A DNA stretch of 42,305 nucleotides from Thermoplasmata archaeon (GCA_021790425.1 JAJYEA010000014.1:1-42305); one strand, 5' to 3'; positions 12,591 through 28,602 are shown, counted from the first letter of the stretch. Notes: generated by a model from the letters alone, not told the origin. Made by a program: numbers and translations.

Positions 12591-12642
12591 GGGTCCCCCA
12601 TCCTCGCAGACAACCCGGAGGACCGGGGAGCGGGGCCCCGGG
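12588..12642. repeat. Palindromic element A2, degenerate copy (A2-3)
   Basis: It begins CCCGGGGTCCCCC and ends GGGGCCCCGGG. Its centre, GACAACCCGGAGGACCGG, matches the centre of the intact A2 copy at 18434 (GACAACCCCAAGGACCGG). The terminal arms have diverged from the CCGAAGGACCCC/GGGGTCCTTCGG of the good copies. It lies in the short gap between the intact OB-fold gene and a C-terminal OB remnant. Confidence 0.55.
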
Positions 12643-12663
12643 CGAGGACTCGGCCCCCGGCGC

Positions 12664-13227: not shown

Positions 13228-14229
13228 CTAGAGTCGCCGCCAGAACCGGGCCGATCGCGTAGAGAACTGGGCCAGGTACGAATGGGGGTATTGGGCAGCC
13301 TTCTGGTACGTGGTGAAGAAGAGCGCGGGCTCTCCGACGCATCTCAGAAGCCGCTTCCTTCCGAGATGGCGAAGGATACCCCGCGCCATGTAGAACCCGA
13401 GCTGGTGCCCTCCGTCGGGCAGGAAGTTCATCAGCCAGTCTGCCACCCAGCTCCGCTCCTCTGGCATCGCAGAGCAGATCGAGAACGCTCCGTCGACGAC
13501 CTTCAGGAGTTCGGGAGCCTGTTTCACCCACTGGACGTAGGCCCGGTCCGTGGGACGCCGGGGTCCAGGGGGGCGGAACAGCGGTGACCTATTGATGAGG
13601 TCCGCCACGCCCTCGGACTCCACCGAATCGAGGAGGCGGAGCAGAGGGTCGGGGGGGCGGGCCGTAGGGTCCCGCGGTCGCTGTTCCATCGCCGTGCGCC
13701 GGAAGAAGTGGTGGTACTCATGGGCCAGGAGGAGCACCGGGTCCGGCCATTCGAGGCACGCCAGGGGATCCATCAGGACCGTCGAGAAGCCCCGGGCGTC
13801 GCTCTTGAAGACAATGAACGAGACGGGAGGGTCGAGGAGCCTCTCAAGTAGCCCTGGAGGGAGGAAGCGACCGGCTGCCACCCGCGCCTCGCCCGTGACG
13901 TCTCTGTGAGACCATACGCGGAGGAAACGGGCAATCTCTCCCCGTCGCTCCCCGACACGAACGTAGTGCGCCAAGAGCCTGTCGGTACCGTCCCGCAGCG
14001 CTCCTTGCCGCTCCTTGCGTCTCGAGGGGCGGTAGGCGAGAGAGAACTTCTCGCGAAGCAACTGTCTATGGAAGGAAGGGTCGTTCCGGAAGAGGACCGA
14101 GTAGCCCGGATCGTGGAAGAGGCGGTCCCACTGGTCGCGGGAAGGTTCTCTGTCCTGGCTCAGTCGCTCGTGGACGATCCAGAAGGCGTCCAGCCCCGTG
14201 AACCGGAAGTTGGGGTTGTGCAACGTCAT
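13228..14229 (-). CDS. Putative zinc peptidase, DUF5700-like (HExxH)
   Basis: A 333-aa protein with the zinc-protease motif HEYHH (H170, E171, H174) preceded by the hydrophobic strand DPVLLLA. Acidic ESEGVAD (about residues 204-210) follows and supplies a plausible third ligand. The order of a helical N-terminus, strand plus HExxH, then an 'E-x-E-G-x-A-D' helix resembles DUF5700-type putative metallopeptidases. There is no signal peptide or membrane helix, so it is probably cytoplasmic; the substrate is unknown. ATG at 14229 is the only good start. It is followed by GAA-centre hairpins and preceded by a perfect copy of repeat A1. Confidence 0.7.
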   Translation of the reverse strand: MTLHNPNFRFTGLDAFWIVHERLSQDREPSRDQWDRLFHDPGYSVLFRNDPSFHRQLLREKFSLAYRPSRRKERQGALRDGTDRLLAHYVRVGERRGEIARFLRVWSHRDVTGEARVAAGRFLPPGLLERLLDPPVSFIVFKSDARGFSTVLMDPLACLEWPDPVLLLAHEYHHFFRRTAMEQRPRDPTARPPDPLLRLLDSVESEGVADLINRSPLFRPPGPRRPTDRAYVQWVKQAPELLKVVDGAFSICSAMPEERSWVADWLMNFLPDGGHQLGFYMARGILRHLGRKRLLRCVGEPALFFTTYQKAAQYPHSYLAQFSTRSARFWRRL

Positions 14230-14328
14230 GACGCGGAGCGCGAGCGCAATCCGGGAGATGAACCCGCGCGTCGGCCCCCCCTCCGGGGGTTCGCCTCAGG
14301 GCCGCCCCCGGCGGCCCATACGCCCGAA

Positions 14329-14380
14329 CCGAGGGACCCCCGCCGACCTCCAACCAGCAGAAGGAAAGGGGGTCCCTCGG
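14329..14380. repeat. Palindromic element A1 (copy A1-1)
   Basis: A 52-bp element with perfect 13-bp terminal arms CCGAGGGACCCCC and GGGGGTCCCTCGG and the centre CAACCAGCAGAAGGAAA. The related copies at 15441 and 22591 share the centre (CCGACAAGCAGAAGGAAA, CCGACAGGCCGAAGGAAA) and similar arms. It lies about 100 bp upstream of the peptidase start. Confidence 0.8.
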
Positions 14381-14452
14381 GAAGACCCGGCCCCAGCACA
14401 CCTCACCCCCACGCCATGCTGGGACGGGTCTGAAGGGCGCATCTCGTGCACA

Positions 14453-14475
14453 CGGAGCGGAGCGGAGCGGAGCGG
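14453..14475. repeat. Short tandem repeat of GGAGC
   Basis: Four to five copies of the pentamer GGAGC/AGCGG. The tract sits in a non-coding spacer of about 490 bp (14230-14719) together with element A1-1. GCACAC and GTGTGC flank the array as a short inverted repeat. Confidence 0.6.
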
Positions 14476-14719
14476 TCGCGGAGCGAAGTGTGCGCGTATG
14501 ACGGCTCGAACCAAGACCTGGACTCCCTGCATCCGTTCACGCGTGATGACCAGCTCCTGTGGGTGCGGCCGAGGGGGGACCCCCAGGCGTCATCGCAGGG
14601 CGCCCCCCGCCCTGCGAGCGGACGCGTCCGACAGAAGGGAGGATGCGTCCAGACCCCGAGGCCGCTCCGCGGCGGCCCCATGGTCAGCCGGACCTTCTCC
14701 GGACGACGGCCCGGGGGAC

Positions 14720-15244
14720 CTACCGCGTCGCGGGAGTCTCGGTGCTAGGTGGTGGAGCGGGCCCGGTCGAATGTGGGTCAATCCGCGCAGGCCGTTGCCG
14801 CTCCGGGCGCCTCTTGAGAACACCCGCGCCCATCAGGACCGCGCCCACAATGATGAGCGCGGTCCCGATGTCCCCCCGCGTGGCGTGGACGTCGACGGTG
14901 GCCGTCCCGCTTGACCAGAAGATCAGATGGTGCCAGTTCGGGACGGTGAGCGAGAACGCTCCTCCATGTCCGTATTGGTGATAGAGGACAGAGTACGAGG
15001 ACGGGCAGTTGCCGCCGGAATCGGGTGGGCTCGTCCCGCAGTCCTCGATCTCGAAGTTGGTGGGCGGCGTGGCGTTCCAGGTGACGGAGAGGTCGGAGGC
15101 GACGAGAACTCCGTAGGTTCCTATCTCCAGCTCGGTCTCCCCCCCGAGCGTGCTCGACCCCGCGTCGAGGATCGCCACGAAGTTCAGGACGAGCCCCACC
15201 GCGAGGGCCACCGCGCCGAGGACGAGCAGTTCGACACGCACCAC
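14720..15244 (-). CDS. Two-TM surface protein, unknown
   Basis: A 174-aa protein starting with GTG. An N-terminal helix (about residues 5-27) and a C-terminal helix (about 126-146) bracket an external domain of roughly 100 residues. That domain contains a likely disulphide pair (DCGTSPPDSGGNC), N-glycosylation sequons and aromatic beta-strand-like segments (NWHHLIFWSSGTATVDV). A basic Pro-rich cytoplasmic tail (KRRPERQRP) ends it. The family was not recognised. The layout matches the other single-pass surface proteins at 17600 and 18541. Confidence 0.7.
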   Translation of the reverse strand: MVRVELLVLGAVALAVGLVLNFVAILDAGSSTLGGETELEIGTYGVLVASDLSVTWNATPPTNFEIEDCGTSPPDSGGNCPSSYSVLYHQYGHGGAFSLTVPNWHHLIFWSSGTATVDVHATRGDIGTALIIVGAVLMGAGVLKRRPERQRPARIDPHSTGPAPPPSTETPATR

Positions 15245-15371
15245 GGCGCACGCCTATCCACGGATGTGGCCATGAGAGACATGAACCCTGCGCCAACCCT
15301 CGCCAGTTCCAGGGGGCGAGTTCTGGTGTCTCGTTCGGCAGGATCGTGCGGGAGGGGACCGAAGGCCCCCC

Positions 15372-15420
15372 CGGGCCTGAGGGAGGACCGTGCCCGAGGG
15401 ACTCCGAGGAGCAGGTCCGG
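15372..15420. repeat. Repeat B, copy B3
   Basis: Contains the B-family core GGACCGTGCCCGAGGG followed after a few bases by CCGAGGAGCAGGTCC, aligning with the copies at 17460, 22801 and 22883. Element A1-2 lies 20 bp further on, with a short GCGC-GAA-GCGC palindrome (15423-15433) in between. Confidence 0.6.
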
Positions 15421-15440
15421 AGGCGCGAAGCGCGTTGGGG

Positions 15441-15491
15441 CCGAGGGACCCTCGGTCTCCCCGACAAGCAGAAGGAAAAAGGGTCCCGAGG
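15441..15491. repeat. Palindromic element A1, copy A1-2
   Basis: Starts CCGAGGGACCCTCGG, has the family centre CCGACAAGCAGAAGGAAA and ends GGGTCCCGAGG. The inner 7 bp of the arms pair; the outer bases have diverged from copy A1-1. It lies in the divergent spacer between the surface protein gene and the phosphorylase gene. Confidence 0.65.
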
Positions 15492-15619
15492 CGAGACGCG
15501 TCCGAGGCAAGCGGCCGAGGATACGTCGTAGAGGCGCCCCTTCCTCCCCAAGTAGGCGGCAAGAGTTCCCCGCGGCGAGAGCGCGCGCATCGGGCCAGGG
15601 AGCACCACCGGGTCGGAAC

Positions 15620-15628
15620 CTAATAAAC
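15620..15628 (+). promoter_or_regulatory. Box-A-like promoter of the phosphorylase gene
   Basis: CTAATAAAC is the only AT-rich patch in this G/C-rich spacer. It lies 26-34 nt before the ATG at 15654, the spacing expected for a TATA box and a very short or absent leader. A purine-rich GGGGGAAGGT also precedes the ATG. Confidence 0.45.
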
Positions 15629-15653
15629 CGAATGCGTGGGGGAAGGTCGCCAC

Positions 15654-16424
15654 ATGCCGTTCCCCCAGCATCCAAGGAAACACCGAGAAGGGGCCCTCTT
15701 CACACCCCGTCACTTCTTCCGCTACCTGAAGAGCACAGGGGAGTCGGTTCCGCGGGCGCCGTCGACAGTTATCCTGTGCTTCACACCCCACTTGACCAAG
15801 TTCGCGGTCGATGCCCTCCACGCGCGGCAGGCGAAGGACGCACCGGAGCTCATCCTGCGAACGCCCCTGGGTCCCCTCGGACTGGTCGTGACGCGAGGGA
15901 TTGGCGCGCCGGCCTTAGCGGTGACCGTGGAGGAACTCATGGCTCGGGGCACCCGCCGGTTCGTCTCCTTGGGGATCGCAGGTTGTCTTCAGGCCGACCT
16001 CAGCGTTGGCACGACAGTGCTCTGCACACGAGCGATCCGTGACGAGGGGACCTCATACCACTATGTCCGGGCAAGCAAGTACGCTTACCCGTCCGGCCCC
16101 CTCACAGCCCGACTGCGACGTGGGCTCGAGAGCCGGGGAGTGCAGGTCAGGACCGGGGCGAGTTGGACCGTCGACGCGGCCTATCGAGAGACCGTGAGGG
16201 AGTTGCGGACCTACCGTAAGGAGGGGGTCCTCACGGTGGAGATGGAGGCGAGCGCCCTCTTCACCATCGCGCGGGTGTCAGGCGTCGAAGCAGCCGCGCT
16301 CTTCACTGTCAGCGACATCCTCGACGAGACCGGCTGGGTCCCAAGGTTCGTCGAGGCCAGGACCCACCTCCATTCGCTTCTGAAGCAAACGGTGGCCGTG
16401 CTGGGCGCCGGCCGACCGCGCTAA
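15654..16424 (+). CDS. Nucleoside phosphorylase (PNP/UDP family)
   Basis: A 256-aa enzyme of the PNP_UDP_1 family, expected to cleave purine nucleosides or uridine with phosphate to give the base and (deoxy)ribose 1-phosphate. Family signatures occur in order: FVSLGIAGCLQADLSVGTTV (phosphate/ribose-binding Gly-rich loop, about residues 103-122), AIRDEGTSYHY, then the active-site block TVEMEASALFTIARVSGVEA (about 194-213) with Met-Glu for ribose and base recognition, and FTVSDIL. The length is that of uridine-phosphorylase-like members. The exact base specificity cannot be told. The ATG at 15654 is preferred over the upstream in-frame GTG at 15636 because the ribosome-binding-like GGAAGG lies between them. 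Confidence 0.9.
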   Translation: MPFPQHPRKHREGALFTPRHFFRYLKSTGESVPRAPSTVILCFTPHLTKFAVDALHARQAKDAPELILRTPLGPLGLVVTRGIGAPALAVTVEELMARGTRRFVSLGIAGCLQADLSVGTTVLCTRAIRDEGTSYHYVRASKYAYPSGPLTARLRRGLESRGVQVRTGASWTVDAAYRETVRELRTYRKEGVLTVEMEASALFTIARVSGVEAAALFTVSDILDETGWVPRFVEARTHLHSLLKQTVAVLGAGRPR

Positions 16425-16548
16425 TGCTCATTCAGGTACGCGATGTCGGGCCCTTGCGTTCATCCGCGTACGCGGCCGTGACTCGTGTCCCTGAGCGCAA
16501 GCGGGGAGTGAGGCGGGAGGAGGGCGGGGGCGTCCGTCCCCCGGGGGG

Positions 16549-16570
16549 CTCACCCGTCGTCGTAGTCCGA
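16549..16570 (-). pseudogene. Tail remnant of a CxWC-family gene
   Basis: The minus strand TCGGACTACGACGACGGGTGA differs at only two positions from the end of the CxWC gene at 17233 (encoding SECDDG and the stop). Nothing of the rest of the gene remains. Element A2-1 begins two bases further, as if a duplication or insertion endpoint lay here. Confidence 0.5.
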
Positions 16571-16571
16571 A

Positions 16572-16630
16572 CCGAAGGACCCCCCTTCCCCCGGAGAGAC
16601 CGGAGGACCGGCGGCCTCGGGGTCCTTCGG
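16572..16630. repeat. Palindromic element A2, copy A2-1
   Basis: A 59-bp element with perfect 12-bp ends CCGAAGGACCCC and GGGGTCCTTCGG. The right half (AGGACCGGCGGCC, then CGGGGTCCTTCGG) is almost identical to copy A2-2 at 18434, which has the same length and the same arms. Confidence 0.8.
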
Positions 16631-16716
16631 GACGATTCGTCCTCTGGACTCCCGGCGCCCGCCCCACTCCCAAGACGGGTCGGACCGGGTGAGGATGGGC
16701 ACCTCCCGCGCAAACG

Positions 16717-16725
16717 ATTGATAAC
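16717..16725 (+). promoter_or_regulatory. Box-A-like element of the Nudix gene
   Basis: ATTGATAAC lies 22-30 nt before the GTG start at 16747, with G/C-rich sequence all around. No ribosome-binding site is seen, suggesting a leaderless transcript. Confidence 0.4.
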
Positions 16726-16746
16726 CACCGAGCCCATCGCCACCCT

Positions 16747-17175
16747 GTGCCCGCGAATCTGAAGGCAGAGGTCTGTGTCGGGGCCGCGATCTTTCACCGC
16801 GGCAGGCTCCTTTTGCTGCGCCGCAATACGACAGTCCCCTTTCCCGGGTTATGGGAGATCCCTGGGGGTCATGTGGAGACCGGGGAGTCGCCCGGGGTGG
16901 CACTCCACCGTGAGGTCCGAGAGGAGACAGGGTTGTCCGTAACGGTGGGGCAGCCGTTCCATGTTTGGACCTTCGCCTACCCGTCGAGCCAGCGAGGGAC
17001 CGTACCGACGGTCGAGATCGACTTCCACTGTTCCATGACGGCGGTGAAGGCACCGCGAATGGACCCGAACGAGCACGTTGAGTTCGCGTGGGTACGGCGG
17101 GGCGACCTGTCGCACTATCGCACGGATCCACGTCTCGGCGCGCTCCATCGAAGGGCTTTCGAGACGCGGCACTGA
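16747..17175 (+). CDS. Nudix hydrolase
   Basis: A 142-aa protein with a complete Nudix box, GX5EX7REUXEEXGU, at residues 41-63 (G41, E47, R55-E56, E59-E60, G62). The protein should hydrolyse a nucleoside diphosphate linked to another moiety, using Mg2+ bound by the box glutamates. It has the usual core order: strand AAIFHRGRLLLLRR, substrate-loop WEIPGGHVE, box, then VEFAWVRRGDL (a typical C-terminal Nudix strand). The size is normal for single-domain members such as MutT/NUDT-like enzymes. The substrate is not predictable. The start is GTG at 16747; the sequence before it has no alternative in-frame start with homology. Confidence 0.9.
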   Translation: MPANLKAEVCVGAAIFHRGRLLLLRRNTTVPFPGLWEIPGGHVETGESPGVALHREVREETGLSVTVGQPFHVWTFAYPSSQRGTVPTVEIDFHCSMTAVKAPRMDPNEHVEFAWVRRGDLSHYRTDPRLGALHRRAFETRH

Positions 17176-17232
17176 CGCGCCGACCCCCTCCCGCCAGGGG
17201 AGGGGGACGGCGCAACTCCGGAGGGGGGTCCC

Positions 17233-17535
17233 TCACCCGTCGTCGCACTCCGACCCCGGCAGGACGGCCGCTTCCCGGGCCTGGACCTCGGCCATCCAGT
17301 CGTAGGGGCTCCTGAGGACCTCCTCCGCGTCCGCGACGTGGATCGGCTGCCATCGAGGGTTCCGCGCGGGCTGCCCCGAACCCGAGAGCGGACCGTCCGA
17401 GCCGGGCCCTCCCGGCGAGGCAGGTCCAGACCGAGGAGCCCGCGCTGTGTCCCCTGGTTCCGAGGCAAGACCGTCCCCGAGGGATTTCCGAGGGGCAGGT
17501 CGTTGCCCGTGCCGTCCCGAGCACCACCCGCACAT
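17233..17535 (-). CDS. CxWC-family small protein with in-frame repeat insertion
   Basis: A 100-aa member of a small paralogous family found only by comparison within this window. It starts MCGWCSGRHG. The conserved C-terminal block is QPIHVADAEEVLRSPYDWM followed by AEVQAREAAVLPGSE and DDG. The N-terminal CxWCxGxH may bind zinc. In the sister copy at 18387 the two blocks are contiguous. Here about 50 residues separate them, and repeat B1 sits in that segment without closing the frame. The upstream sequence CCCCGCGACGG before the ATG is shared with the copy at 18387, supporting the start. No known family was recognised. Confidence 0.6.
   Translation of the reverse strand: MCGWCSGRHGQRPAPRKSLGDGLASEPGDTARAPRSGPASPGGPGSDGPLSGSGQPARNPRWQPIHVADAEEVLRSPYDWMAEVQAREAAVLPGSECDDG
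17460..17501. repeat. Repeat B, copy B1, inside a reading frame
   Basis: Core words CCGAGGCAAGACCGTCCCC and TTCCGAGGGGCAGGTC match copy B2 at 22883 almost base for base; B1 is slightly shorter. It lies inside the CxWC gene at 17233-17535. Confidence 0.7.
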
Positions 17536-17599
17536 CCCGTCGCGGGGGGCCCCGGACGGACGGGCCGCGAGCTGCCGTAGGCAGTGCGACCTTCGTCGT

Positions 17600-18145
17600 C
17601 TACTCTATGTCCCCCGAGGCGATGTAGGCGTCGGCGTAGTAGTGGTCGTCGCTGCACCCGCAGGTTCGCTGATAGGGTCCGGCGTACGCGACCGTGAGTG
17701 CCCCTCCGGGAGCGCTGACGGGGACGTACGTCGGAACGCAGCCGTCCCCCACAACCGACGTAGCGTTCGCCCAGTCCTTTCCCCAGGCCACGGTCAGATT
17801 CCACATCGAGGAGGGGGGGTTGCCTGGGGAGCGGAACTGAAACTCCAAGGGCACGCCGTGGAAGGTGTAGGAGGTGGAAAGTTCGCCAGCGACCGAGGAG
17901 TTGTCCGAGGTCGCGTTCACCGTCGTCCACGCCGCCCCAGGTGCAGGGTGCGGGTCGCAGGTGGTCTGCCCGCGCGGATGCACGTTCAGTGGCGAACCCG
18001 GGATCTCGAACGCGCCAATCGGGGCAAGGGCCGCGACCGCGCAGAGCACAGCGACGATAGGCCACGTCCGCCTTATCGAGGATGACTCTCGGGGTGATGG
18101 GCCATAACTTTCGACCTCAGGTGGAGCCGGACGTTGCGCGGCCAC
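17600..18145 (-). CDS. Secreted or membrane-anchored surface protein
   Basis: A 181-aa protein. A basic N-terminus and one hydrophobic helix (about residues 27-47) form a signal anchor. The remainder is an external beta-rich domain of about 130 residues with several N-x-S/T sequons (NATSDNSS, NLTV, NATS) and four cysteines (TTCDP, GDGCVP, RTCGC) suitable for disulphides. The start is GTG at 18145, with CCAATAAC just upstream. Family unknown; organisation resembles the neighbouring surface proteins. Confidence 0.65.
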   Translation of the reverse strand: MAAQRPAPPEVESYGPSPRESSSIRRTWPIVAVLCAVAALAPIGAFEIPGSPLNVHPRGQTTCDPHPAPGAAWTTVNATSDNSSVAGELSTSYTFHGVPLEFQFRSPGNPPSSMWNLTVAWGKDWANATSVVGDGCVPTYVPVSAPGGALTVAYAGPYQRTCGCSDDHYYADAYIASGDIE

Positions 18146-18387
18146 GTTATTGGAACTGGTCCAGGGAGGAAATGAACTTGTGCGCCGACCCCCCCTCCCA
18201 CGCCGGGGAGGGGGGCGGCGCTATCCGGGGGGAGGGGGACTCCCCCTACGCGTCCGCCTCGGGGGAGGCACGCGGCCTCCCGGGCCCTCACCTCGGACAT
18301 CCAATCGGAGGGGCTCCGAAGAACCTCCTGCGAGTCCGCGACGTGGACGGGCTGCCAACCGTGCCGCCCGTGGCACCACCCGCACAT
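18073..18387 (-). CDS. CxWC-family small protein, probably frameshifted near its end
   Basis: A clean copy of the family: MCGWCHGRHGWQPVHVADSQ, then EVLRSPSDWMSEVRAREAAC and LP. The open frame continues to 18073 with low-complexity residues, overlapping the next gene's start by about 70 nt. A run of five C follows the codons for LP. Skipping one base there gives L-P-E-A-D-A and a TAG at 18246, close to the LPGAEA and LPSSEA ends of the copies at 21142 and 22023. The true gene is therefore probably 18246-18387, either frameshifted or with one sequencing error. Its first 10 residues nearly match the copy at 17535. Element A2-2 lies about 45 bp upstream. Confidence 0.5.
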   Translation of the reverse strand: MCGWCHGRHGWQPVHVADSQEVLRSPSDWMSEVRAREAACLPRGGRVGGVPLPPDSAAPLPGVGGGVGAQVHFLPGPVPITWPRNVRLHLRSKVMAHHPESHPR

Positions 18388-18433
18388 GCCGTCGCGGGGG
18401 GACCCCGGGTGGACGATCCGCGCCCCGTCCGGG

Positions 18434-18492
18434 CCGAAGGACCCCCCTGCTGGGGGACAACCCCAAGGACCGGCGGCCCCGGGGTCCTTCGG
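18434..18492. repeat. Palindromic element A2, copy A2-2
   Basis: 59 bp with perfect 12-bp ends CCGAAGGACCCC and GGGGTCCTTCGG, the same length and ends as copy A2-1 at 16572. The interior carries a second small palindrome (CCCCC-tgct-GGGGG-like). It lies immediately upstream of a CxWC gene. Confidence 0.8.
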
Positions 18493-18540
18493 GAGGCCTC
18501 GGCCAACCTGCCGGACGAGGCCGAATCCGCGTGGGGGCGG

Positions 18541-18963
18541 CTACCGGTCGTGGGCGATAGCGTCCAGGGGAGCCCCGTTCGGCGTGGGTTCGGGCTTCTC
18601 AGGGGCGGCGCCCTCACTCGCCCCTCGTTCGCCTACTCTCTTCGCACGACGTCGGCGCCGCGCTCGGCGAACGAAAGCGACCAAGACCACAGCTGAGAGG
18701 GCGATGATGACGGCCCCGAGGACGAAGACGGGGGACTCGTAGATCGGGAAATGTGGGAGGCCACAACCCGGCGACGGCCCGAATTGGACGGTCAGATTCG
18801 ACCACGCATGGCTGTTGATGGAGTCGTTGGCCTCCAAAGACACGTTGAAGGGCGCGAGCGAGGTGAAGCGCGGGTCCGGGTCTTGGTTGTGCGAGACGGG
18901 GCTCTGACCGGACTTTGGCGGTCGTGCCCCTTTCACCTCGAGGGAGTGTAGGGGGCAATTCAT
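18541..18963 (-). CDS. C-terminally anchored surface protein lacking a signal peptide
   Basis: A 140-aa protein. A polar first half with sequons (NVSL, NDS, NLTV) and two or three cysteines looks extracellular. One helix (about residues 76-97) and a strongly basic stop-transfer sequence (RRARRRRRAKR) with an acidic tail complete it. No N-terminal signal sequence is present, which is unusual for this topology; an in-frame TAG lies shortly upstream. The transposon at 19003 starts only about 40 bp upstream of the ATG, so the original 5' end may have been lost. Confidence 0.55.
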   Translation of the reverse strand: MNCPLHSLEVKGARPPKSGQSPVSHNQDPDPRFTSLAPFNVSLEANDSINSHAWSNLTVQFGPSPGCGLPHFPIYESPVFVLGAVIIALSAVVLVAFVRRARRRRRAKRVGERGASEGAAPEKPEPTPNGAPLDAIAHDR

Positions 18964-19002
18964 TCTAATTCTGGACGCCCCTTGTTTCTAATGGCATGTG
19001 AT

Positions 19003-20745
19003 GGGTAGCGCTTATCCACGTAGGTGGCATGCCCCAATGTGCAGTTCCGTTTCCGCCGCCGGGGAAAGTCCACCTACGTCTACCTCATCCAGAAAGGACG
19101 GCGCGACGGGCACGTTGTCAACACCGCCGAGGTCTACCTCGGCACTCAGGACGAGGTGATCCAGCGCCTCACCGCCCCCTCCGAGGGTGGCCTCCAGGGC
19201 TTCGAGTTCCTGCCCTATCCCTTCGGCATCTCGGCGGCGGTCCTCGCCGCCGACGAGGCCCTGGGGTTCTCCCGGACCATCCAGGAGGTCACCGGGAGCC
19301 GCGCCGCCGCCGGAGCCCTCCTTGCCTTCATCGCCGGTCGCGCCCACGAGCCGGTCAGCAAGAACGGCATGGAGGAGTGGGCCTCCCGCTCGCTCTTCCA
19401 CTTCCTCCCCGGGGTCCCTTCGCTCTCCTGCCGACGCTACCTCGACGACATGGACCAGCTCACCCCGCAGGTCGTGGAGACGGTCACCCTCCGCCTGGGC
19501 GAGCGGCTCGTCGCCCAGGGGCACCGCCCCTCTCTGGTCTTCTTCGACCCCACCAACTTCTCCACGGAGCAGGAGCCCGACCTCGACGACCTCGACCGGC
19601 AGCTCCCCCGCACGGGCTATCCCAAGGATGGGAACCACCAGGCCAAGCTCGTGGGGCTCGCGCTCGCCACCACCGAGCGGAGCCTGCCGGTCTTCCACCG
19701 GACCTACCCCGGGAACGTGAACGACGCCCGCCTCTTCCGGGAGATGGTGGGGGAGATGACCGAGAAGCTGGTGAAGATGGGGGCGGCCGCCGAGGAGCTC
19801 TGCTTCGTCTTCGACAAGGGGAACAACTCGAAGCCGGGGTTCGCCGCCCTGGGGGCGGCGAAGGCGCACTTCGTCTCCTCGCTCAAGCGCAACCAGGTGA
19901 AGGACCTCCTGGCGAGGCCCGCGAGCGCGTACCGAAAGCTGTACACGACACAGAAGGAGACCGAGATCCGGGGGTTCCGAGCCCCCCGAGAGGTGATGGG
20001 GGTGAAGGGGGTCGTGGTGGTGGCGTACAACGAGGCTGGGAGGAAGCGGCAGGAGCGGGACTTCGAACGGGCGAAGACCCGCTTCCTCGAGGGCAGCCGG
20101 GAGATCGCGAGGAAGCTCTCCAAGCCGCACCGGGGACGGAGGAGCACCCGGGAGAGCGTGGCGCTGAGGGTGAGCGACCTGGTGCCGAAGAAGTGGCGCG
20201 GGGTGTTCCGGTACCGGGTCGGGGTCACGCTCGACCAGTCGTTCGGGAAGAGGCAGCCTCGGTTCACGGTGCGGGCGTGGGTGGACAAGGAGGCGGAGGA
20301 GAGGAGGAGGCAGGGGTTCGGGAGGACGGTGGTCTTCACGGACCGGGTCGACTGGGACGCCAAGAAGATCGTGCAGACCTACTTCGCACGGAGCGGTCAG
20401 GAGGAGGACTTCCACGTCCTGAAGGACGTGCTGCTGATGCCGGTGATGCCGATCTTCCACCGACGGGACGGCCGGATCAAGGTGCACGCGTTCCTGTGCG
20501 TGGTGGGGCTGCTCTTCTACCGGTGGATCCAGTGGCGAGTGGAGAAGGCCGCGAGGCAGAGGGTCCCTATCGAACACCTGGCGAACGTGCTGCGACAGAT
20601 CCAGGTGGTGGCGCTGCTGAGGACCGAGGGGAAAGAGGTCTCGGTGGCGAAGGTGGTCCTGCAGAAGCTGAGCGAGGAGCAGGCGATGGTCGCGAAGGCG
20701 CTCGAGCTAGCCCGGTTCGTCCCGAAGTGACGCGGGGGGCTACCA
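19003..20745 (+). mobile_element. IS1634-type insertion sequence
   Basis: A single transposase gene with short flanks. GGGTAGC at about 19003 and GCTACC near 20739-20744 are the best candidate inverted ends, but they are short and no target duplication is obvious, so the boundaries are approximate. Truncated-looking secreted-protein genes lie on both sides. Confidence 0.6.
19024..20730 (+). CDS. IS1634-family transposase
   Basis: A 568-aa DDE transposase of the DDE_Tnp_1/IS1634 type. The N-terminus GKSTYVYLIQKGRRDGHVVN is the short beta domain common to this group. The catalytic positions fall in LVFFDPTNFS (about residue 175), CFVFDKGNNS (about 264) and GQEEDFHVLKD (about 460). The latter is followed by the typical VHAFLCVVGLLFYRWIQW helix. 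The length is full, with no internal stop, so it appears intact. The start is GTG at 19024; a later in-frame GTG at 19039 is possible. It is related to the transposases at 25617/28678 and 30440 but clearly divergent from both. Confidence 0.9.
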   Translation: MACPNVQFRFRRRGKSTYVYLIQKGRRDGHVVNTAEVYLGTQDEVIQRLTAPSEGGLQGFEFLPYPFGISAAVLAADEALGFSRTIQEVTGSRAAAGALLAFIAGRAHEPVSKNGMEEWASRSLFHFLPGVPSLSCRRYLDDMDQLTPQVVETVTLRLGERLVAQGHRPSLVFFDPTNFSTEQEPDLDDLDRQLPRTGYPKDGNHQAKLVGLALATTERSLPVFHRTYPGNVNDARLFREMVGEMTEKLVKMGAAAEELCFVFDKGNNSKPGFAALGAAKAHFVSSLKRNQVKDLLARPASAYRKLYTTQKETEIRGFRAPREVMGVKGVVVVAYNEAGRKRQERDFERAKTRFLEGSREIARKLSKPHRGRRSTRESVALRVSDLVPKKWRGVFRYRVGVTLDQSFGKRQPRFTVRAWVDKEAEERRRQGFGRTVVFTDRVDWDAKKIVQTYFARSGQEEDFHVLKDVLLMPVMPIFHRRDGRIKVHAFLCVVGLLFYRWIQWRVEKAARQRVPIEHLANVLRQIQVVALLRTEGKEVSVAKVVLQKLSEEQAMVAKALELARFVPK

Positions 20746-20822
20746 GCCCCTCGGCGACCTCGAATTAGCCGCGTGTGCCCCCAACGCCCTTTCTCTCGAG
20801 GAATCGGCCGTGACCGCCAAAC

Positions 20823-21128
20823 TCAGGTCTGACTCCCGAAGTACCAAGTGTAAGTGTAGGGGGGGACGCCACCGCCCGCCGTACCCGTGAACTGTTGGTT
20901 CCAAGAGGAGGGGGAGTCGCAGTTCGAGTCGGAGGCCCAGAAGCTCTCGCCCCCACGCGTTGCCTGAGCCCAGAACGAAGAGTCGACCTCCCCGCCCGGA
21001 ACTCCGGCGACCGTCCCGGTCTCCGAAACTGCCGGATCTGGTCTCGGAGCGTGAGCCACCCCCAGGAGGAGGATCCCCACGGCAACGAGCGTCAAGGCGG
21101 CCAGATTCACGGCAAGGTCACCCCCCAA
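20823..21128 (-). CDS. Truncated secreted PKD-type protein
   Basis: A 101-aa product. Residues about 5-27 are a signal or anchor helix. The rest begins a PKD-like domain, GGGVPPYTYTWYFG, that ends in a stop just where the rest of the PKD fold should follow. PKD proteins normally continue with a GDG turn and several strands, so this looks like the 5' stump of a longer gene. The IS1634-type element lies about 80 bp downstream. The start is TTG at 21128 or the in-frame GTG at 21110. Confidence 0.5.
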   Translation of the reverse strand: MGGDLAVNLAALTLVAVGILLLGVAHAPRPDPAVSETGTVAGVPGGEVDSSFWAQATRGGESFWASDSNCDSPSSWNQQFTGTAGGGVPPYTYTWYFGSQT

Positions 21129-21141
21129 CCCCGACCTAAGC

Positions 21142-21369
21142 CTATGCCTCGGCCCCAGGAAGGACGGCCGCCTCCCTCGCCCTCACCTCCGCGAGGTAGT
21201 CGCAGGGCGAGCGGAGCACATCGGTCGCGTCCTCGACACGGACGGGGCGGAACCCGTTGTGGACCCCGCGGCACCAGCCACACCGCGTTCCCGCAGGGGA
21301 AGGCTCCTCGGCGTGCGGGCAGACCGAGAAACCCGCCTCGCTTCCGCAGAGGCCGGATGACTGTGGCAC
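21142..21369 (-). CDS. CxWC-family small protein
   Basis: A 75-aa member starting at GTG. It reads CGSEAGFSVCPHAEE, then RCGWCRGVHNGFRPVRVEDA, TDVLRSPCDYLAEVRAREAA and VLPGAEA. The extra upstream cysteines (CGSEAGFSVCP) together with CGWC could complete a four-cysteine zinc site; similar residues occur before the CSWC of the copy at 22023. The frame is open upstream, but that part overlaps the membrane protein gene at 21510, so the GTG at 21369 is the best supported start. Function unknown. Confidence 0.55.
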   Translation of the reverse strand: MPQSSGLCGSEAGFSVCPHAEEPSPAGTRCGWCRGVHNGFRPVRVEDATDVLRSPCDYLAEVRAREAAVLPGAEA

Positions 21370-21509
21370 GGGTTTTTCGGGAGAACTCGGACCTCGTGGC
21401 CCCTCCAGGGACGAGTCCGAAGGTCCTGGCGAGTGACGCGGTCCGAACGCGCCGGAAGTGTTCGCCGTCGGTCTGGACGGGGAGCAAAAAGAACTGGCCG
21501 ATGGCCAGC

Positions 21510-21917
21510 TCACAAGGTGAGAAGGGAGAGGAGAACGAGGACACCGACGCCGATGAGCGCGGCCGTGTAGCCACCTACAACTCGAATCGGCTGGGGAGCG
21601 GGAGACCAGCCTGCTCCGCGGGCGGCCCGGGCGTAGGTCCGCCGAGCAGTTAGGCCCCCTACCCCGCCAACTATGCTCAGCGATAGGGATGTGGCGAAGG
21701 TCGCTGCGAACCTCATCACGATAGAAGGAATGGGAGGGCCAGGAGGAGGACCGCTCGTCACGAGGAGGTAGTTTAGCAGCACCACCGATACAACGCCACC
21801 GGCGCATGCAAGGTCCAGCCAGGCTTCGGCGAGAAGCTTCCATTCACGAACGTCCCGAGGCTGGGGCGGCCTCAGTCCCCGAAGAGGCGCCCCCCCCACC
21901 ACGCTGAGGTCGTTCAT
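21510..21917 (-). CDS. Three-helix membrane protein
   Basis: A 135-aa protein with hydrophobic helices at about residues 34-53, 66-86 and 113-133 separated by short basic loops (TARRTYARAARG). ATG at 21917 is chosen; upstream codons are arginine-rich noise. No family recognised. It lies between two CxWC genes on the same strand. Confidence 0.65.
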   Translation of the reverse strand: MNDLSVVGGAPLRGLRPPQPRDVREWKLLAEAWLDLACAGGVVSVVLLNYLLVTSGPPPGPPIPSIVMRFAATFATSLSLSIVGGVGGLTARRTYARAARGAGWSPAPQPIRVVGGYTAALIGVGVLVLLSLLTL

Positions 21918-22022
21918 CTGATCAGCCGCGGGACGCGATGGTCGCCGGGAATCATGAACCCCGCCATTCCCGGCCCGCCGGGGTAGGGGCCGGCGCAACG
22001 GGGGGGAGGGGGCCCACCGCTC

Positions 22023-23009
22023 TCACGCCTCGGACGAGGGCAGAACCGCCGCCTCCCTGGCTCGGACTTCCGCGAGGTAGTCGCAGGGCGAGGTCAGGAC
22101 CTCGCTCACGTCGTCGACGTGAACGGGCGTGAAGACCCCGTGCCGCCCCCGGCACCACGAGCAACGCTCGGTGACCGACTCCGACATCGGGCAGATGTCC
22201 GATGGGGTGATGGAGAAGCGCGCGCAGAAGAGACGGAGCTTCGTCTGGTCGCGGAAGACCTGCTCGCGGGCCTCGGGGTGAGCCTCCAGGGCGGCCAACG
22301 CCGCGCACACGCGGCCCCGGCGCTGGGCCTCGACCCAGGCCCTCGCCCGCTGGTCCGCGTCCCGCGAATCGTCGGGGAGACCGCTGGTCACGTCCAGGGC
22401 CGTGAAACGGCGGTCGTCGAGGCCATCGCCTTCCGATTCGCGGAAGGCGAGGCGGGTTTCCGACCGTGTGCGACGGGCGTCCCGGGGAGCCCCCGACGCT
22501 CGAGCGCCGCCCAGGACCTGGACGGGACCGACCTCGACGGCGGCGAGGGCCGTGTCGAGCTTCGCCCTGAGCTTCTCCGCGTCGACCGGGCCGAGAGAGC
22601 CCCCATCCCTCCGACAGGCCGAAGGAAACGGGGTCTCTCGGAAGGACTCGGCCGCCGCTGGACTGGCCTCACCGGGGGACACGGACGAGTCCGAATGGCC
22701 GACCAGGCGCTCGAGGCGGGCGAGCGTGGGGGCTCGCTTCGGGTCGTGGCCGAGAGACCCCGCTTCGGCGAGAGAGGTCGAAGGACCTGGGCAGGGGTCT
22801 CGAGGGAGGTCCGTCCCGGAGGGCTCGGCCTGACGGGCAGGACCGGTATAGGCGAGTCCGAGGGACGAGGGACACGCGTCGTCCCGAGGCAGGACCGTCC
22901 CCGAGGGCAAAACCCGAGGGGCAGGTCCGATGTCGGCGGGGGCTCGCGGCGTGTTCGGCGTCTTGGCGGGCTCGGCGTTCGTGGCGCTTGCGGCGCTCAT
23001 CGCTGGCAT
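22023..23009 (-). CDS. Long CxWC-family protein with three repeat elements in frame
   Basis: A 328-aa reading frame. The C-terminal part is the conserved family: CARFSITPSDICPMSESVTE, RCSWCRGRHGVFTPVHVDDV, SEVLTSPCDYLAEVRAREAA, VLPSSEA. Before it lies a charged, probably helical region (AEKLRAKLDTALAAVEVG and WVEAQRRGRVCAALAALEAH). The first 140 residues are low-complexity and contain repeats B2, B4 and A1-3 in frame; B2 and B4 both translate to a PSGTxLPRD motif. No stop interrupts. The true start is uncertain: ATG at 23009 is the furthest, and an in-frame TGA lies upstream. The function is unknown. Confidence 0.55.
   Translation of the reverse strand: MPAMSAASATNAEPAKTPNTPRAPADIGPAPRVLPSGTVLPRDDACPSSLGLAYTGPARQAEPSGTDLPRDPCPGPSTSLAEAGSLGHDPKRAPTLARLERLVGHSDSSVSPGEASPAAAESFRETPFPSACRRDGGSLGPVDAEKLRAKLDTALAAVEVGPVQVLGGARASGAPRDARRTRSETRLAFRESEGDGLDDRRFTALDVTSGLPDDSRDADQRARAWVEAQRRGRVCAALAALEAHPEAREQVFRDQTKLRLFCARFSITPSDICPMSESVTERCSWCRGRHGVFTPVHVDDVSEVLTSPCDYLAEVRAREAAVLPSSEA
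22591..22641. repeat. Palindromic element A1, copy A1-3
   Basis: Arms CCGAGAGAGCCCC and GGGGTCTCTCGG pair with one unpaired base. The centre CCGACAGGCCGAAGGAAA is the A1 family centre. It lies inside the reading frame of the long CxWC protein. Confidence 0.65.
22801..22844. repeat. Repeat B, copy B4
   Basis: Contains CGAGGGAGGTCCGTCCCGG, then GGGCAGGACC, aligning with B1-B3 with several substitutions. In the minus-strand frame of the long CxWC gene it reads PSGTDLPRD. Confidence 0.5.
22883..22928. repeat. Repeat B, copy B2
   Basis: CCGAGGCAGGACCGTCCCCG and CCCGAGGGGCAGGTCC flank an A-rich GCAAAA spacer. It is near-identical to B1 at 17460 apart from a few bases and a small length difference. 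In the minus-strand frame it reads PSGTVLPRD. Confidence 0.7.
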
Positions 23010-23036
23010 GCCCCGATCAGGCCGCGACGAGGCCGA

Positions 23037-23196
23037 GGGTCCGAAGGACCCGAGGGAGGACGACCTTCAGGTCGTCCGAAACGCGAGGACCTGCGGGGCC
23101 TCGCGGCCGAGCTTGCCCCCCATGAGGGCGCGGGACGGCCCCGAGCCGCCGAAGGCGGCGAGGGAGGACCTGGCCGACCTCCTGACCCGAAGGGTC
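23037..23196. repeat. Cluster of four GAA/TTC-centre palindromes
   Basis: 23037-23051 is GGGTCC-GAA-GGACCC. 23058-23077 is GGACGACC-TTCA-GGTCGTCC. 23145-23159 is GCCGCC-GAA-GGCGGC. 23184-23196 is GACCC-GAA-GGGTC. Each stem is different, yet the centre is nearly constant. The whole stretch 23010-23451 has no convincing gene. Confidence 0.65.
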
Positions 23197-23451
23197 GGCG
23201 GAAGGACAGGTCCGGTCCGAGGGATCGATATGCGGTCCGCGTTCGACGCGGACCCTTACGAGACCTCGGGGCCGGCGGCTCACGCGGCCCTCATGCGGGG
23301 TCGCGGCACCCTACCCCATGCCAGCGAGGAGCGGCCCGGCGACACGAACCCGAACCACGAGCGAAGCCCGCGACACCCCCAGCCTCATCCCCGGGCGGGG
23401 GGCGACGGCCCGAAACCCCATTGTGGCCGCCGAGGGTTGTACCTGACGTGA

Positions 23452-24834
23452 TCAGCCCGAAAGCCCCGTGAGCAGTTTCGCCTGCTCAAGGGCGGCCGGA
23501 CCGACCCGGCCCAGGCGCTCCGCCACCCGGGATGCGGAGCCGTACATGATACGGACGTAGGCCGGGTCTCGCAGGTTCCCGAGGAGCAGCAGCCCCGGAC
23601 CTTCCCGTTGGACCGGTCCCTCCACCTCGGCCACACCCTTCACCCGACGGCCGTGCCGACGCAACTTGCGGAACTCCCCCTCCGCAAGCGCCGTGGTCCG
23701 GGGCACCGGTCTCACCCGGTTCCCCACCTTCACGTTCGGAGCCAGGAGTTCGCCACGCCTACGCTCCAGGTCCTCGCGCAGGCGGCCCAGAGCACGACGG
23801 AGCTCCCGTTCGTCGTGGTCCCCTCCCTTCTGTTCCTCCTCGGCCCGGAGCTTCCCCAAGAGCCAGTCCAGCCGCCGCCGGCCGTGCTCCAGCGCCCGCT
23901 CGCTGAGATGGCCGGTCGTCGCCAGGGGCACCGGACCGTTGCGGAACTTGAGCGCCTTCCGCAGACGCTCGAACCAAGTCCACCTCGCCTCCAGACGACG
24001 GACCTCCCTCGCGAGACCATGCTGGCGCGGGGAGGGCGCCAGCAGACGGTCCAGGACCCCCTCCAGCTTGCGGTACGGCGCGCCCGTCGCCCGCCGCCCT
24101 GCCCGGTGGAGGCGCGCTTTCAGCTCGCTCCGCACCTCCTCGCACCGACGCCAGAAGGCCAGGGCCGAGAGGGAGAACGGGTAGGGACGACCCTTCGCCT
24201 CCTTGCCGGAGGCGAGGATTGCCTCGGCCCAGGTCCGGGTCTGCACGGCCTCGCGGCTCTTCCCTCCCTCTCGCCGAAGTCTCTTGGCCAGGGCCCGCAG
24301 ACGCCGCTTCACTCCGATGCGGTCGATGGCGCTGCGGAGTCGGGCGTAGGAGACCTCGAAGAGGCGGAGCCCTGCCGCCTTGAGATAGTGGAAGTGGCAC
24401 GTCAGGATGTAGAGCCTCGGCCAGACCACGCGGAGCGCCTGGTCGAGTCCGTCGCTCATGTCCCGCACGGCGACCACGGGAGGGCCCAGCGCGTCATCGA
24501 GGATCCGGAGGATGCGGGAGACGTCCTCCCGGCTCTCCTGGGCGACCGAGGCGGAGAGCAGCGCGATGCCACTCCACCCGTCGAGGAGCTGGAGCGTGAG
24601 CCGTCCCGGGATCCCGGTGGTGTCCAGAAGCAGCACGTATCCTCCCTGCTGACGAAGATGTCGAGCGAGGAGAGGCCAACTCTCGAGGTGGACCGCCACC
24701 ACGCGCAGGGCGAACCCGTCAGCCAGGTGCTGGAGGGTACGGCGCGGGACGCGCACACCCCGCGCCGTGAGGAGCGCCTCGATCTCCCCGAACTGGCGGT
24801 GTTCGAGGAAGTGGAGGCGCCCCACCTCGGCCAT
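23452..24834 (-). CDS. Transposase, MULE-like DDE
   Basis: 460 aa from the first ATG. The catalytic core resembles the Mutator/MULE group. The first Asp is in YVLLLDTTGIPG, followed by DGWSGIALLSAS. The second Asp lies in VVAVRDMSDGLDQAL, and the CxH signature is TCHFHYLKAAGLRLFE. A long, basic helical insertion follows. The same frame is open upstream to about 25050 and encodes a zinc-finger-like stretch (HACAPNCGRPLQV, VCDVTLCCPHHRRR) without an ATG, GTG or TTG. The real protein therefore probably begins there, by an unusual start or by frameshifting from the preceding gene. Confidence 0.75.
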   Translation of the reverse strand: MAEVGRLHFLEHRQFGEIEALLTARGVRVPRRTLQHLADGFALRVVAVHLESWPLLARHLRQQGGYVLLLDTTGIPGRLTLQLLDGWSGIALLSASVAQESREDVSRILRILDDALGPPVVAVRDMSDGLDQALRVVWPRLYILTCHFHYLKAAGLRLFEVSYARLRSAIDRIGVKRRLRALAKRLRREGGKSREAVQTRTWAEAILASGKEAKGRPYPFSLSALAFWRRCEEVRSELKARLHRAGRRATGAPYRKLEGVLDRLLAPSPRQHGLAREVRRLEARWTWFERLRKALKFRNGPVPLATTGHLSERALEHGRRRLDWLLGKLRAEEEQKGGDHDERELRRALGRLREDLERRRGELLAPNVKVGNRVRPVPRTTALAEGEFRKLRRHGRRVKGVAEVEGPVQREGPGLLLLGNLRDPAYVRIMYGSASRVAERLGRVGPAALEQAKLLTGLSG

Positions 24835-25890: not shown

Positions 25891-28602
25891 CTAGGTGAAC
25901 CCCTGTCTCCCCATCATCGCCACGTGGTCCCACATCACGGGCGTGGCCGCAGGGATCTTTCGTAGCTTCGAGCCGTACCTCTTGGCCGTCCAGAACACGA
26001 TCGCGTTCATCAGTAGGACCCGGCAGAGGACGTTCACCTCTTGGCGACGTGGATCCCGGGTTTGCATTCGGCCCGCGTGACCCCAGTTCACATCCGTCTC
26101 GAAGAAGTTCCACCGCTCCACCCGGTTGCACGCCTCCCGTACCTGGCGCCGGAGATTGGGGGAGAGGGCGTACCTCAGGACGTAGATGGTACGCACGGCC
26201 TTCCCCAGCTCTCGAAGGGCCTCGCTGACGTTCCTCCCCTCCTCGTCGTAGATGTTCCAGGCCCGGAGCATGTCCCGGGCGTGGACCTTGCCTTCCTGCA
26301 ACGCCTTCACCAATCGCCCCAGCGAGGGGAGCGCACGCTCGATCTTTCGCCAGTCGATCTGTCCCACCCCCTCGACGGGAAGTCCCTCCGCAGGCTCGTC
26401 ATAGTAGAGCTTCACCTTCCCCAGGCCCCGGAAGCGGGCCAGAATCCTCTTGCCCATCAGGAGGGAGAGCGCCCACAGCGCCAGGTGTTGCCCGTGCGTG
26501 TCTCCGGCCGCCCATTCCGGGCTCGTCCCTCCGAAGGGCTCGAGGATCGAGGATAGGAGGTACCACGATTCCCATTCCCTCGGCGAGATCAGCCCCATCT
26601 GCACGGCTACGCCGTCGTTCCGAATCATCCAGTACACGGTCATCCCCACCTTCTTGTGCCGAGGGTGGAAACCCGACTGGAGCGTCTTCTCCGAGGAGAT
26701 CACGGACTTCCCGTCCGCCGCCGACCCCTTCCCGTCTCCCCACGGGAGCCCCAGCCCCTCCCGCTCCCAGGCTTCCAGCAACTGCCGAAGGGCCACGCGC
26801 AACGTCGATGCGGTCAGATGGACCTCATCGAAGTTCTTCAGCTTCCCCAACGTCATCCGTTTGGAGAAGAGGCCGGCCATCGCCCGGACCCCCACGTTCA
26901 TGGCCCGGGCCAGGATGCAAGCTATGGCCTGGGTCTCCCGTTCCAGCTTCGGCAGTCGCCGCGCTTCGGGATGCTTTGGGGCGAATGCCTCCAGGAACCC
27001 TGTCCACCCGTGAACATCCCGGAGCACCCCGGCGGGGGTGACGTCCGGGACACTGCCCAGGAACCGTTGCCGGGCCCGCTCGTTGGCCCGCTCCTGCGCC
27101 TTCTCCCACTTCCGTGAGGGCCGTCGCCCGATCAGCCGTCCACCCTCGATGGCCAGGCCTCGTGGGGCTTGCGCCAACTCCTCCCATGCCTGTCCAATCT
27201 CCCGTCGGGTCGTCGCCAGGGCCTCGACGAGAGGGGCGATGGAGGGAGTGCTCACCTCCCGCACGGGCTTCCATTCGTCCCTGAACTGACGGGAGGCGGG
27301 GCAGACCACCCTTCTCGCCCACAGCATGTCGGCCAGCGTGAGCAGGACGATGGTGTCGAAGACGCGACGCTCGGTCATCAGTTCGTCCGGGACGGGGAGG
27401 AATCTTAGGCGCCGCCGGAGGTGGGCCGGAACAGGTGTTCGGAAGGGCTTCACCTCGAGGACCTCCGGGAGGATGGCCACCACGGCTCGTGCGTGGGCGT
27501 CCTTCCCCTCGAAGGGAACACCTCGCAGGTGGGGGACCATCTGCCGGGCGACGACGGCCTTCCTGGCGAGGATACGGTAGAAACCACGGCGGGAGCGTAC
27601 CTCCGTCTCGTGCTCGGCCAGGGTCCTGGCCAAGGGCCGGAACCGATGGAACCTCTCGGGGGGACCGTCCCGGGGCGAACCCAGAAGGGCTCGATAGAGG
27701 GGCTGGAACTTGAGGTCTCCGCGCTCGAAGAGGGCTTGGCTGGCCTCGGCGATGCTCTCCTTCGCCTGCTTCTTGGACCTCTTGCGAATCGAGCTGCACC
27801 GGCGCGCGAAGATGAACAGGCAGTTGTCCAGAGCCTGCTGGCCACGGAACGCGAGGTAGAATCGATGGGCGTGGAGGACCTGTTTCTCCTCCCAACGGTC
27901 GAGGGTGCTGTTGGCCCTGCGCTCAAAGAAGTCGTAGAGCTCCTCGCAGGCGGGATGAGCAAGGAGGCGTTCTTGGAAGAGCCCCATGGACCGGAGGGTC
28001 TCCTGGACCTCCCGCCGGCAGGTGCTCTCCGCGACGAGCCTGTCGAGGTTGGGCTTGCCGTGGGCCGCAGGAGGAAAGCGCAGAAGCTCTCGAACTATGA
28101 CGACCCTACGTGGAAGGGCCCGTCGTGACATCGCGATCCCGGCTGCGCGGGCAAGGAAGGCCTGTCGCTCGAGTCGAGATTGACGGTGGAGCCTGCCGCG
28201 GAGCGTCTGGAGGAATCTCCGAAGACGGTCGGGCGTGGGAGGAATCGCCCCGCGTCTCGAAAGGTAACGGCCCGCCGTCGTGACGACGGAGCGCGCAGGG
28301 GCCGCTGGGTCCCAAGCCCCCTCGGCGACCCCTTCCGCGAGAAGCCGGAGGAGCGCGGTGGGATGGAATCGCCGGAGTCGGTGGTCCTTGTAGAAGGCCG
28401 TCCAGACCCGGCTGTAGGTGGCTGGGGAGGGATTCGGGAGTTGGGCCCTCAGCGCGGCGGGGAGCCTGCGGCGCCGTTCTTCCAGGCCTCGGCAAAACGT
28501 GGGGTACGTGATCCGTGTTGAGCCATCCCAGAGCCTGTCGACGGTTGAGCGATAGGCCGCCCACCGATCCAGAGTCCCCACCCTTCCCCTGGTGTAGGGC
28601 AC
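25891..28602 (-). CDS. tnpA: Tn3-family-like transposase (TnpA)
   Basis: A 903-aa protein filling the transposon. The catalytic region matches DDE_Tnp_Tn3 in layout. It has GSAADGKSVISS (first Asp, about residue 629), then WAAGDTHGQHLALWALSLLM (second Asp, about 700, in the position of the Tn3 'TDT' motif), and finally CNRVERWNFF (Glu, about 829). The last of these is preceded by RNVSEALRELGKAVRTIYVL. The first 550 residues are basic and helical, as in the DNA-binding N-terminus of Tn3 TnpA. It is slightly shorter than the usual roughly 1000 aa. The ATG at 28602 is about 70 nt inside the right inverted repeat. The frame is intact, so the copy may be active. Confidence 0.8.
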   Translation of the reverse strand: MPYTRGRVGTLDRWAAYRSTVDRLWDGSTRITYPTFCRGLEERRRRLPAALRAQLPNPSPATYSRVWTAFYKDHRLRRFHPTALLRLLAEGVAEGAWDPAAPARSVVTTAGRYLSRRGAIPPTPDRLRRFLQTLRGRLHRQSRLERQAFLARAAGIAMSRRALPRRVVIVRELLRFPPAAHGKPNLDRLVAESTCRREVQETLRSMGLFQERLLAHPACEELYDFFERRANSTLDRWEEKQVLHAHRFYLAFRGQQALDNCLFIFARRCSSIRKRSKKQAKESIAEASQALFERGDLKFQPLYRALLGSPRDGPPERFHRFRPLARTLAEHETEVRSRRGFYRILARKAVVARQMVPHLRGVPFEGKDAHARAVVAILPEVLEVKPFRTPVPAHLRRRLRFLPVPDELMTERRVFDTIVLLTLADMLWARRVVCPASRQFRDEWKPVREVSTPSIAPLVEALATTRREIGQAWEELAQAPRGLAIEGGRLIGRRPSRKWEKAQERANERARQRFLGSVPDVTPAGVLRDVHGWTGFLEAFAPKHPEARRLPKLERETQAIACILARAMNVGVRAMAGLFSKRMTLGKLKNFDEVHLTASTLRVALRQLLEAWEREGLGLPWGDGKGSAADGKSVISSEKTLQSGFHPRHKKVGMTVYWMIRNDGVAVQMGLISPREWESWYLLSSILEPFGGTSPEWAAGDTHGQHLALWALSLLMGKRILARFRGLGKVKLYYDEPAEGLPVEGVGQIDWRKIERALPSLGRLVKALQEGKVHARDMLRAWNIYDEEGRNVSEALRELGKAVRTIYVLRYALSPNLRRQVREACNRVERWNFFETDVNWGHAGRMQTRDPRRQEVNVLCRVLLMNAIVFWTAKRYGSKLRKIPAATPVMWDHVAMMGRQGFT

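Follow-up and report, generated by a model that had tools for sequence, protein, structure and literature searches.

The palindromic elements of Rickettsia (RPE) were reportedly described by Ogata et al. in 2000. RPE and the palindromic elements of Wolbachia are dispersed palindromic repeats of about 100-150 nt, present in frame within unrelated genes and also in intergenic DNA; the inserts have a preferred open frame and are tolerated by the host protein (PMC2229807, PMC3767692, PMC10969869). Prokaryotic MITEs such as ERIC, Correia and RUP are small, non-autonomous and hairpin-forming, and are sometimes fused in frame to genes (PMC2229807). Most of what is known of protein-coding palindromes comes from Rickettsia and Wolbachia, and archaea have supplied one report: as cited in PMC2229807, Suyama, Lathe and Bork reported in 2005 a family of palindromic repeats with coding potential in Methanocaldococcus jannaschii. 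On the strength of that citation, palindromes within genes are not new to archaea, and the view that such elements would be notable in an archaeon, taken in an earlier reading of the present DNA (here the sequence-only reading), needs qualifying.

The DNA analysed here, referred to as the window, is 42,305 nt long and is the entire contig C9 of an archaeal assembly of 2.5 Mb in 153 contigs. Its closest named relatives are the Thermoplasmata MAGs REEB18 (here G021) and clean3262 (G011). All the genomes compared are draft assemblies, part of them MAGs. We consider it highly probable that the repeats in the window belong to one family of small, non-autonomous, dispersed two-hairpin DNA elements, which are tolerated in frame within genes and presumably translated. 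Direct support comes from the family itself, its structure, the empty sites, the reading frame and phase, and the constraint on the host genes.

The observation made in the sequence-only reading is confirmed and proves to have a greater extent than was noted there. The four copies of repeat B proposed in it were all found, at 15385-15418, 17466-17500, 22808-22844 and 22892-22928. Repeat B and the repeats A1-3 had been treated there as separate, but they are the two halves of one element family. The order within the element is hairpin 1 (CCGARRGACCCC...GGGGTCYYTCGG, with the conserved interior CCGANANGCCGAAGGAAA), then GAG, then hairpin 2, which is often repeat B, and finally the end sequence GTCCGAA or similar. 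The size is usually 78-108 nt. Repeat B folds into three stems, the first of 5 bp and the third with its loop, separated by internal GT/CA and GA/GA loops, in the order stem-GT-stem-GA-loop-GA-stem-CA-stem.

Both sides have changed in 9 of the 12 pairs of hairpin 1, with 33 double-change cells against 10.3 on shuffling. The corresponding figures for hairpin B are 6 and 1.4, and its internal GT/CA and GA/GA are invariant. A strict motif for hairpin B (5 bp, GT, stem, GA, stem-loop, GA, stem, CA, 5 bp) was matched 10 times in 316 kb of related loci and never in five Markov-shuffled controls, and the hairpin is therefore not a chance occurrence. A search of Rfam 15 gave no match for window positions 14000-24000 at E-values up to 1, and 11 related loci gave only a tRNA. 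Folding energies computed in sliding steps along the window gave no useful signal; low scores were common in coding stretches too, and for the minus strand the shuffles were those of the plus strand.

One host gene of the window and its elements are as follows.

22023-23009, minus strand: host gene of the CxWC family, with a conserved MxAxSAxSATNAE start (seen also in relatives) and a C-terminal CxWC domain; orthologue in G021 (L062, P0006).
22591-22695, plus strand: E5, a complete element of 105 nt, with hairpin 1 at 22591-22641, hairpin 2 and a GTCCGAA end (R1 and R2 covariance matches; exact gap against the orthologue).
22750-22847, plus strand: E6, with hairpin 1 at 22750-22805 and a repeat B hairpin at 22808-22844, in the same gene (R2, E=8e-8; B motif scan).
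22858-22930, plus strand: third unit in this gene, a hairpin CCGAGGGACGA...TCGTCCCGAGG and a repeat B hairpin at 22892-22928 (B motif scan).

Comparison of orthologues with and without inserts, as suggested in the sequence-only reading, revealed exact empty sites. For E5, query positions 318-390 and 496-549 match contiguous positions 863-935 and 936-989 of the G021 orthologue. The element is apparently read, on the minus strand within the gene, as the insert SDSSVSPGEASPAAAESFRETPFPSACRRDGGSLGP. Besides E5, the gene has two or three more units near its N-terminus, where E6 reads PSGTDLPRDPCPGPSTSLAEAGSLG in the frame of the gene and the third unit reads PSGTVLPRD. As had been described, the open frame holds two B hairpins together with two type-A hairpins, and the two B copies encode the peptides PSGTVLPRD and PSGTDLPRD.

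The other CxWC genes of the window, with the elements in or beside them, are listed next.

17233-17535, minus strand: CxWC gene with a 153-nt insert.
17353-17505, plus strand: the 153-nt in-frame insert of that gene, made up of two units with B hairpins at 17390-17427 and 17466-17500 (flanking blocks contiguous in the 18387 sister).
18073-18387, minus strand: CxWC sister gene, with no insert between the two blocks (dN/dS 0.15 against the 17233 domain).
18434-18525, plus strand: E4, which adjoins the CxWC domain of the 18387 gene on its upstream side and shares its frame, with GGSFG followed by PDGARIVHPGSPRDGM (R2, E=1.8e-6; phase).
21324-21396, plus strand: weak element match close to the CxWC domain of the 21142 gene, on its upstream side (R2, E=0.006).

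The insert in the 17233 gene lies between CGWCSGRHG and WQPIHVADAEEV, and in the 18387 sister CGWCHGRHG runs unbroken into WQPVHVADSQEV. The sequence-only reading had correctly placed repeat B exactly between these two blocks, but it counted one copy in the gene and missed the second, at 17390-17427. Nor does the PSGTxLPRD peptide extend to this gene, as its B copies are read in another frame. The 18387 sister has an apparent one-base frameshift near the C-terminus, with the expected end, PEADA and a stop, in another frame, as read from the sequence. Other CxWC inserts, of about 75-81 nt, occur in G021. The element in one further CxWC copy (L061) is not in frame and disrupts the gene, and three copies (L059, L065, L068) are frameshifted and may be pseudogenes.

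The CxWC family (window 21142-23009, L062, L063, L117, L121) has a conserved MTAxSAxSA start, and some members have a DUF5710-like segment. It is multi-copy and clustered, and in other genera the N-terminal half alone is recognisable. Against Pfam, NCBIfam and PHROGs it gave no match beyond a weak resemblance to DUF5710, and searches of viral contigs, phages and plasmids for this family found nothing.

The remaining elements of the window lie in OB-fold genes or between genes.

7732-7818, plus strand: element that breaks a second OB-fold gene copy, where 87 nt replace 1 nt, with an in-frame TAG and a net frameshift.
12587-12700, plus strand: element towards the C-terminus of an OB-fold gene, which adds a new stop after SLGRSDSALTIVEA (R2, E=2.6e-4).
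14329-14434, plus strand: E1, 106 nt, upstream of the DUF5700 gene at 13228-14229 (R1 and R2 matches; flank homology and Pfam).
15359-15418, plus strand: intergenic unit with the repeat B hairpin at 15385-15418 (B motif scan).
15441-15507, plus strand: E2 (hairpin 1), intergenic (R1 and R2 matches).
16572-16646, plus strand: E3 (hairpin 1 with a 35-nt interior), intergenic (R2, E=1.5e-7).

The two OB-fold genes (7590-7960 and 12554-12990, minus strand) are small RPA-like paralogues with weak matches to PF01336 and REPA_OB_2, both struck by elements, and more OB-fold copies lie near CxWC genes in G021. A C-terminal element supplies the stop codon in two OB-fold genes. It is worth adding that a short conserved sequence (GACCAGCTCCTGTGGGTGCGG and the DNA upstream of it) is found near elements in the window at about 14500-14565, at L062:3930-3990 and at L099:7440-7480; the L099 copy carries a B-type element of about 78 nt and the other two are without one. 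The contig is also rich in transposons, with one transposase ORF of the Tn3 family and several ORFs resembling DDE transposases (25891-28602, 19024-20730, 28807-30159, 30440-32107).

Comparison with empty-site homologues defined three exact 105-nt insertions, none of which has a target-site duplication. A small conserved protein on contig C72 of G021 (L098, element 56460) contains a 105-nt element, and its paralogue on C46 of the same genome, with 90% DNA identity, is without it; in BLASTN, the two matches abut at one base of the empty copy. The insert, 35 residues long, is absent from five homologues, one of them in the window's own genome. In a second G021 protein (31875), comparison with the paralogue on C25 likewise shows an exact insertion of 105 nt. 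Several unrelated protein families are interrupted, including a Zn-ribbon family with 99-nt copies on C46 and C90 of G000 (the window genome), copies of 108, 81 and 99 nt in G001 and G021, and uninterrupted members elsewhere. A gene of G016 has a 108-nt copy, and its homologues are contiguous in many genomes. The flank on the hairpin 1 side, as read from the sequences, is often GTCCGGG or GTCCGAA, resembling the other end of the element. Yet another copy of the 56460 host gene (L209, G021:C92:47500-51500) is interrupted at about 1040-2965 by an element that resembles a group II intron and has an ORF for a reverse transcriptase/maturase, some 8 codons from the insertion point of the palindromic element.

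These occupied and empty copies bear on the idea that the elements are functional structured RNAs (antisense or cis-regulatory, for example) that overlap genes by chance and are not mobile DNA. Such RNAs would fit the covariation with invariant internal loops, and also the tandem GA/GA, which forms on the plus strand only, antisense to the hosts. However, the occupied genes are unrelated, close paralogues have empty sites, hairpin 2 varies strongly among copies and there is no Rfam family, and we regard this explanation as unlikely.

The frame of the insertions argues in turn for dispersed elements that are tolerated within genes. Among the 16 internal insertions whose boundaries are defined by homologues, 14 keep the frame (nominal p = 1e-5 against an expectation of one third), though the tally is small and its in-frame share is inflated because several cases were found through open frames, which alone mean little since stops are rare in GC-rich DNA. 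The frame is lost in two cases, the CxWC copy L061 and the OB-fold gene at 7590-7960 with its in-frame TAG; the earlier statement that the repeats leave frames open does not hold for every copy. Every copy with a known host is antisense to that host. One reading phase (...GGSLG, then P) is shared by 10 of the 14 phase-scored copies, and over 23 elements this preferred phase contains a single stop where about 7 would be expected.

If the inserts were small introns, or intervening sequences of another kind that are excised from the mRNA, their frame would not matter. Strong hairpins at precise positions in genes would suit this proposal, as would the group II intron in the C92 copy of the 56460 host gene, so close to the same point. 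It is nevertheless very improbable, given that 14 of 16 inserts have a length divisible by three and stay open when read in the host frame, that the preferred phase is depleted of stops, and that Rfam gave no match; a length of 3n is moreover not built into the element, because the non-genic E1 has 106 nt.

Host genes have dN/dS values between 0.06 and 0.47, indicating purifying selection, and their substitutions are concentrated at codon position 3. The sequence-only reading had itself raised the possibility that the CxWC frames are pseudogenes kept open by GC bias, and more generally the host ORFs might all be decaying in this way, with the repeats as incidental debris. The frameshifts in L059, L065 and L068 and the broken OB-fold copy are what such decay would produce. 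Against this, dN/dS is 0.064 between the interrupted L098 host and its empty paralogue and 0.29 between the 22023 gene and its orthologue, with substitutions favouring position 3, and conserved homologues occur in many genomes. For the 56460 host and the 22023 gene decay is refuted by dN/dS; it may hold for individual CxWC copies, and as a general account it has little probability.

For elements tolerated within functional genes, the codon periodicity inside and outside the inserts is informative. GC3 is 0.91-0.96 in the hosts, whereas the inserts have a nearly flat GC content across codon positions (0.61-0.80) and no comparable third-position rise, and for this reason they look passively translated. 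Flat GC is the expectation for passive translation of a structure-constrained element. An AlphaFold model of the L098 host, run with six sequences, places the insert between helices 2 and 3 with a pLDDT of about 40, compared with about 90 for the flanking helices, and the insert is thus predicted to sit in a disordered loop. The interrupted proteins seem to have gained about 35 residues and yet look whole. Candidate peptides that would span an insert are ESFRETPFPSACR and GTPFPSVGAR.

The covariance model R2 gave 62 matches (E <= 0.01) in 8 of 14 near relatives: 17 in G021, 14 in G016, 11 in G000, 9 in G011, 6 in G001, 2 each in G010 and G020, and 1 in G006. A class-wide covariance search, with a cut-off of E <= 0.001 and stricter filters than the near-relative search, found matches only within the window's own family, in 7 of the 400 Thermoplasmata genomes and 3 of the 104 genera covered. 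Within these searches, the element-bearing genomes also have matches to the CxWC protein family, mostly strong. Contigs with at least two matches have a single orientation per contig without exception (39 matches on 10 contigs, tandem copies not being independent). This does not separate an effect of replication from one of genes, because most host genes there also run one way, and GC skew did not separate the two. Pattern scans of IMG/VR for hairpin B and hairpin 1 gave no matches.

We propose that an element would insert at a precise point, in fixed orientation and without target-site duplication, beside a GTCCGGG-like sequence resembling its own GTCCGAA end. The copies that survive within genes would be those with a length that is a multiple of three and a reading phase without a stop. 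Translation, which we presume, would then yield a disordered loop of low complexity, about 35 residues long and tolerated by the host protein. The targets of selection would be the host protein and the nucleic-acid hairpins rather than the inserted peptide. Mobility may be conferred by an enzyme that acts in trans and recognises the element as a folded single strand. We suggest more tentatively, and with considerable doubt, that this is a miniature mobile element of a single-strand, orientation-locked, duplication-free and mostly intragenic kind, moved without a Y1 transposase by a putative archaeal enzyme with specificity for the paired hairpins. A candidate source of such an enzyme is the CxWC/DUF5710-like family, found together with the elements.

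Among known systems, REP/REPIN sequences and IS200/IS605 single-strand transposition share with these elements hairpins near both ends, the lack of target-site duplication, one orientation per contig and a target flank resembling the element end. A Y1 transposase was sought as the mobiliser, and PF01797 had no match in the three genomes searched (the window genome, G006 and G011). Like MITEs, the Thermoplasmata elements are small, non-autonomous and hairpin-forming, with in-frame fusions, but they are not classical MITEs, as the three exact junctions have no target-site duplication and there is no single terminal inverted repeat pair. Integron attC sites are provisionally set aside, GTTRRRY boxes not being evident.

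The likeness to RPE noted in the sequence-only reading stands for size (about 100 nt), palindromes with covarying stems and a conserved fold, dispersal (with E1, E2 and E3 intergenic), insertion in unrelated genes, frame (14 of 16), phase and empty sites. The elements fit RPE in functional effect, and are likened to them by description, not by sequence. They differ in having two adjacent hairpins where RPE have one long stem, a GC-rich archaeal host, invariant GT/CA and GA/GA loops, and about 10-20 detected copies per genome. The M. jannaschii repeats, compared through the description in PMC2229807 alone, are likewise repetitive archaeal palindromes with open frames fused into protein genes, but belong to another archaeal lineage. 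The Thermoplasmata family is independent. It interrupts several host families, its junctions are exact and free of duplication, and a single genome has occupied and empty copies of a gene that are nearly identical; these features make both mobility and the tolerance of proteins to sudden 35-residue insertions directly testable. The family offers a way for GC-rich archaeal proteins to acquire disordered loops. What distinguishes it from the systems described before is its two-hairpin architecture, its fixed internal loops and its exact, duplication-free empty sites.
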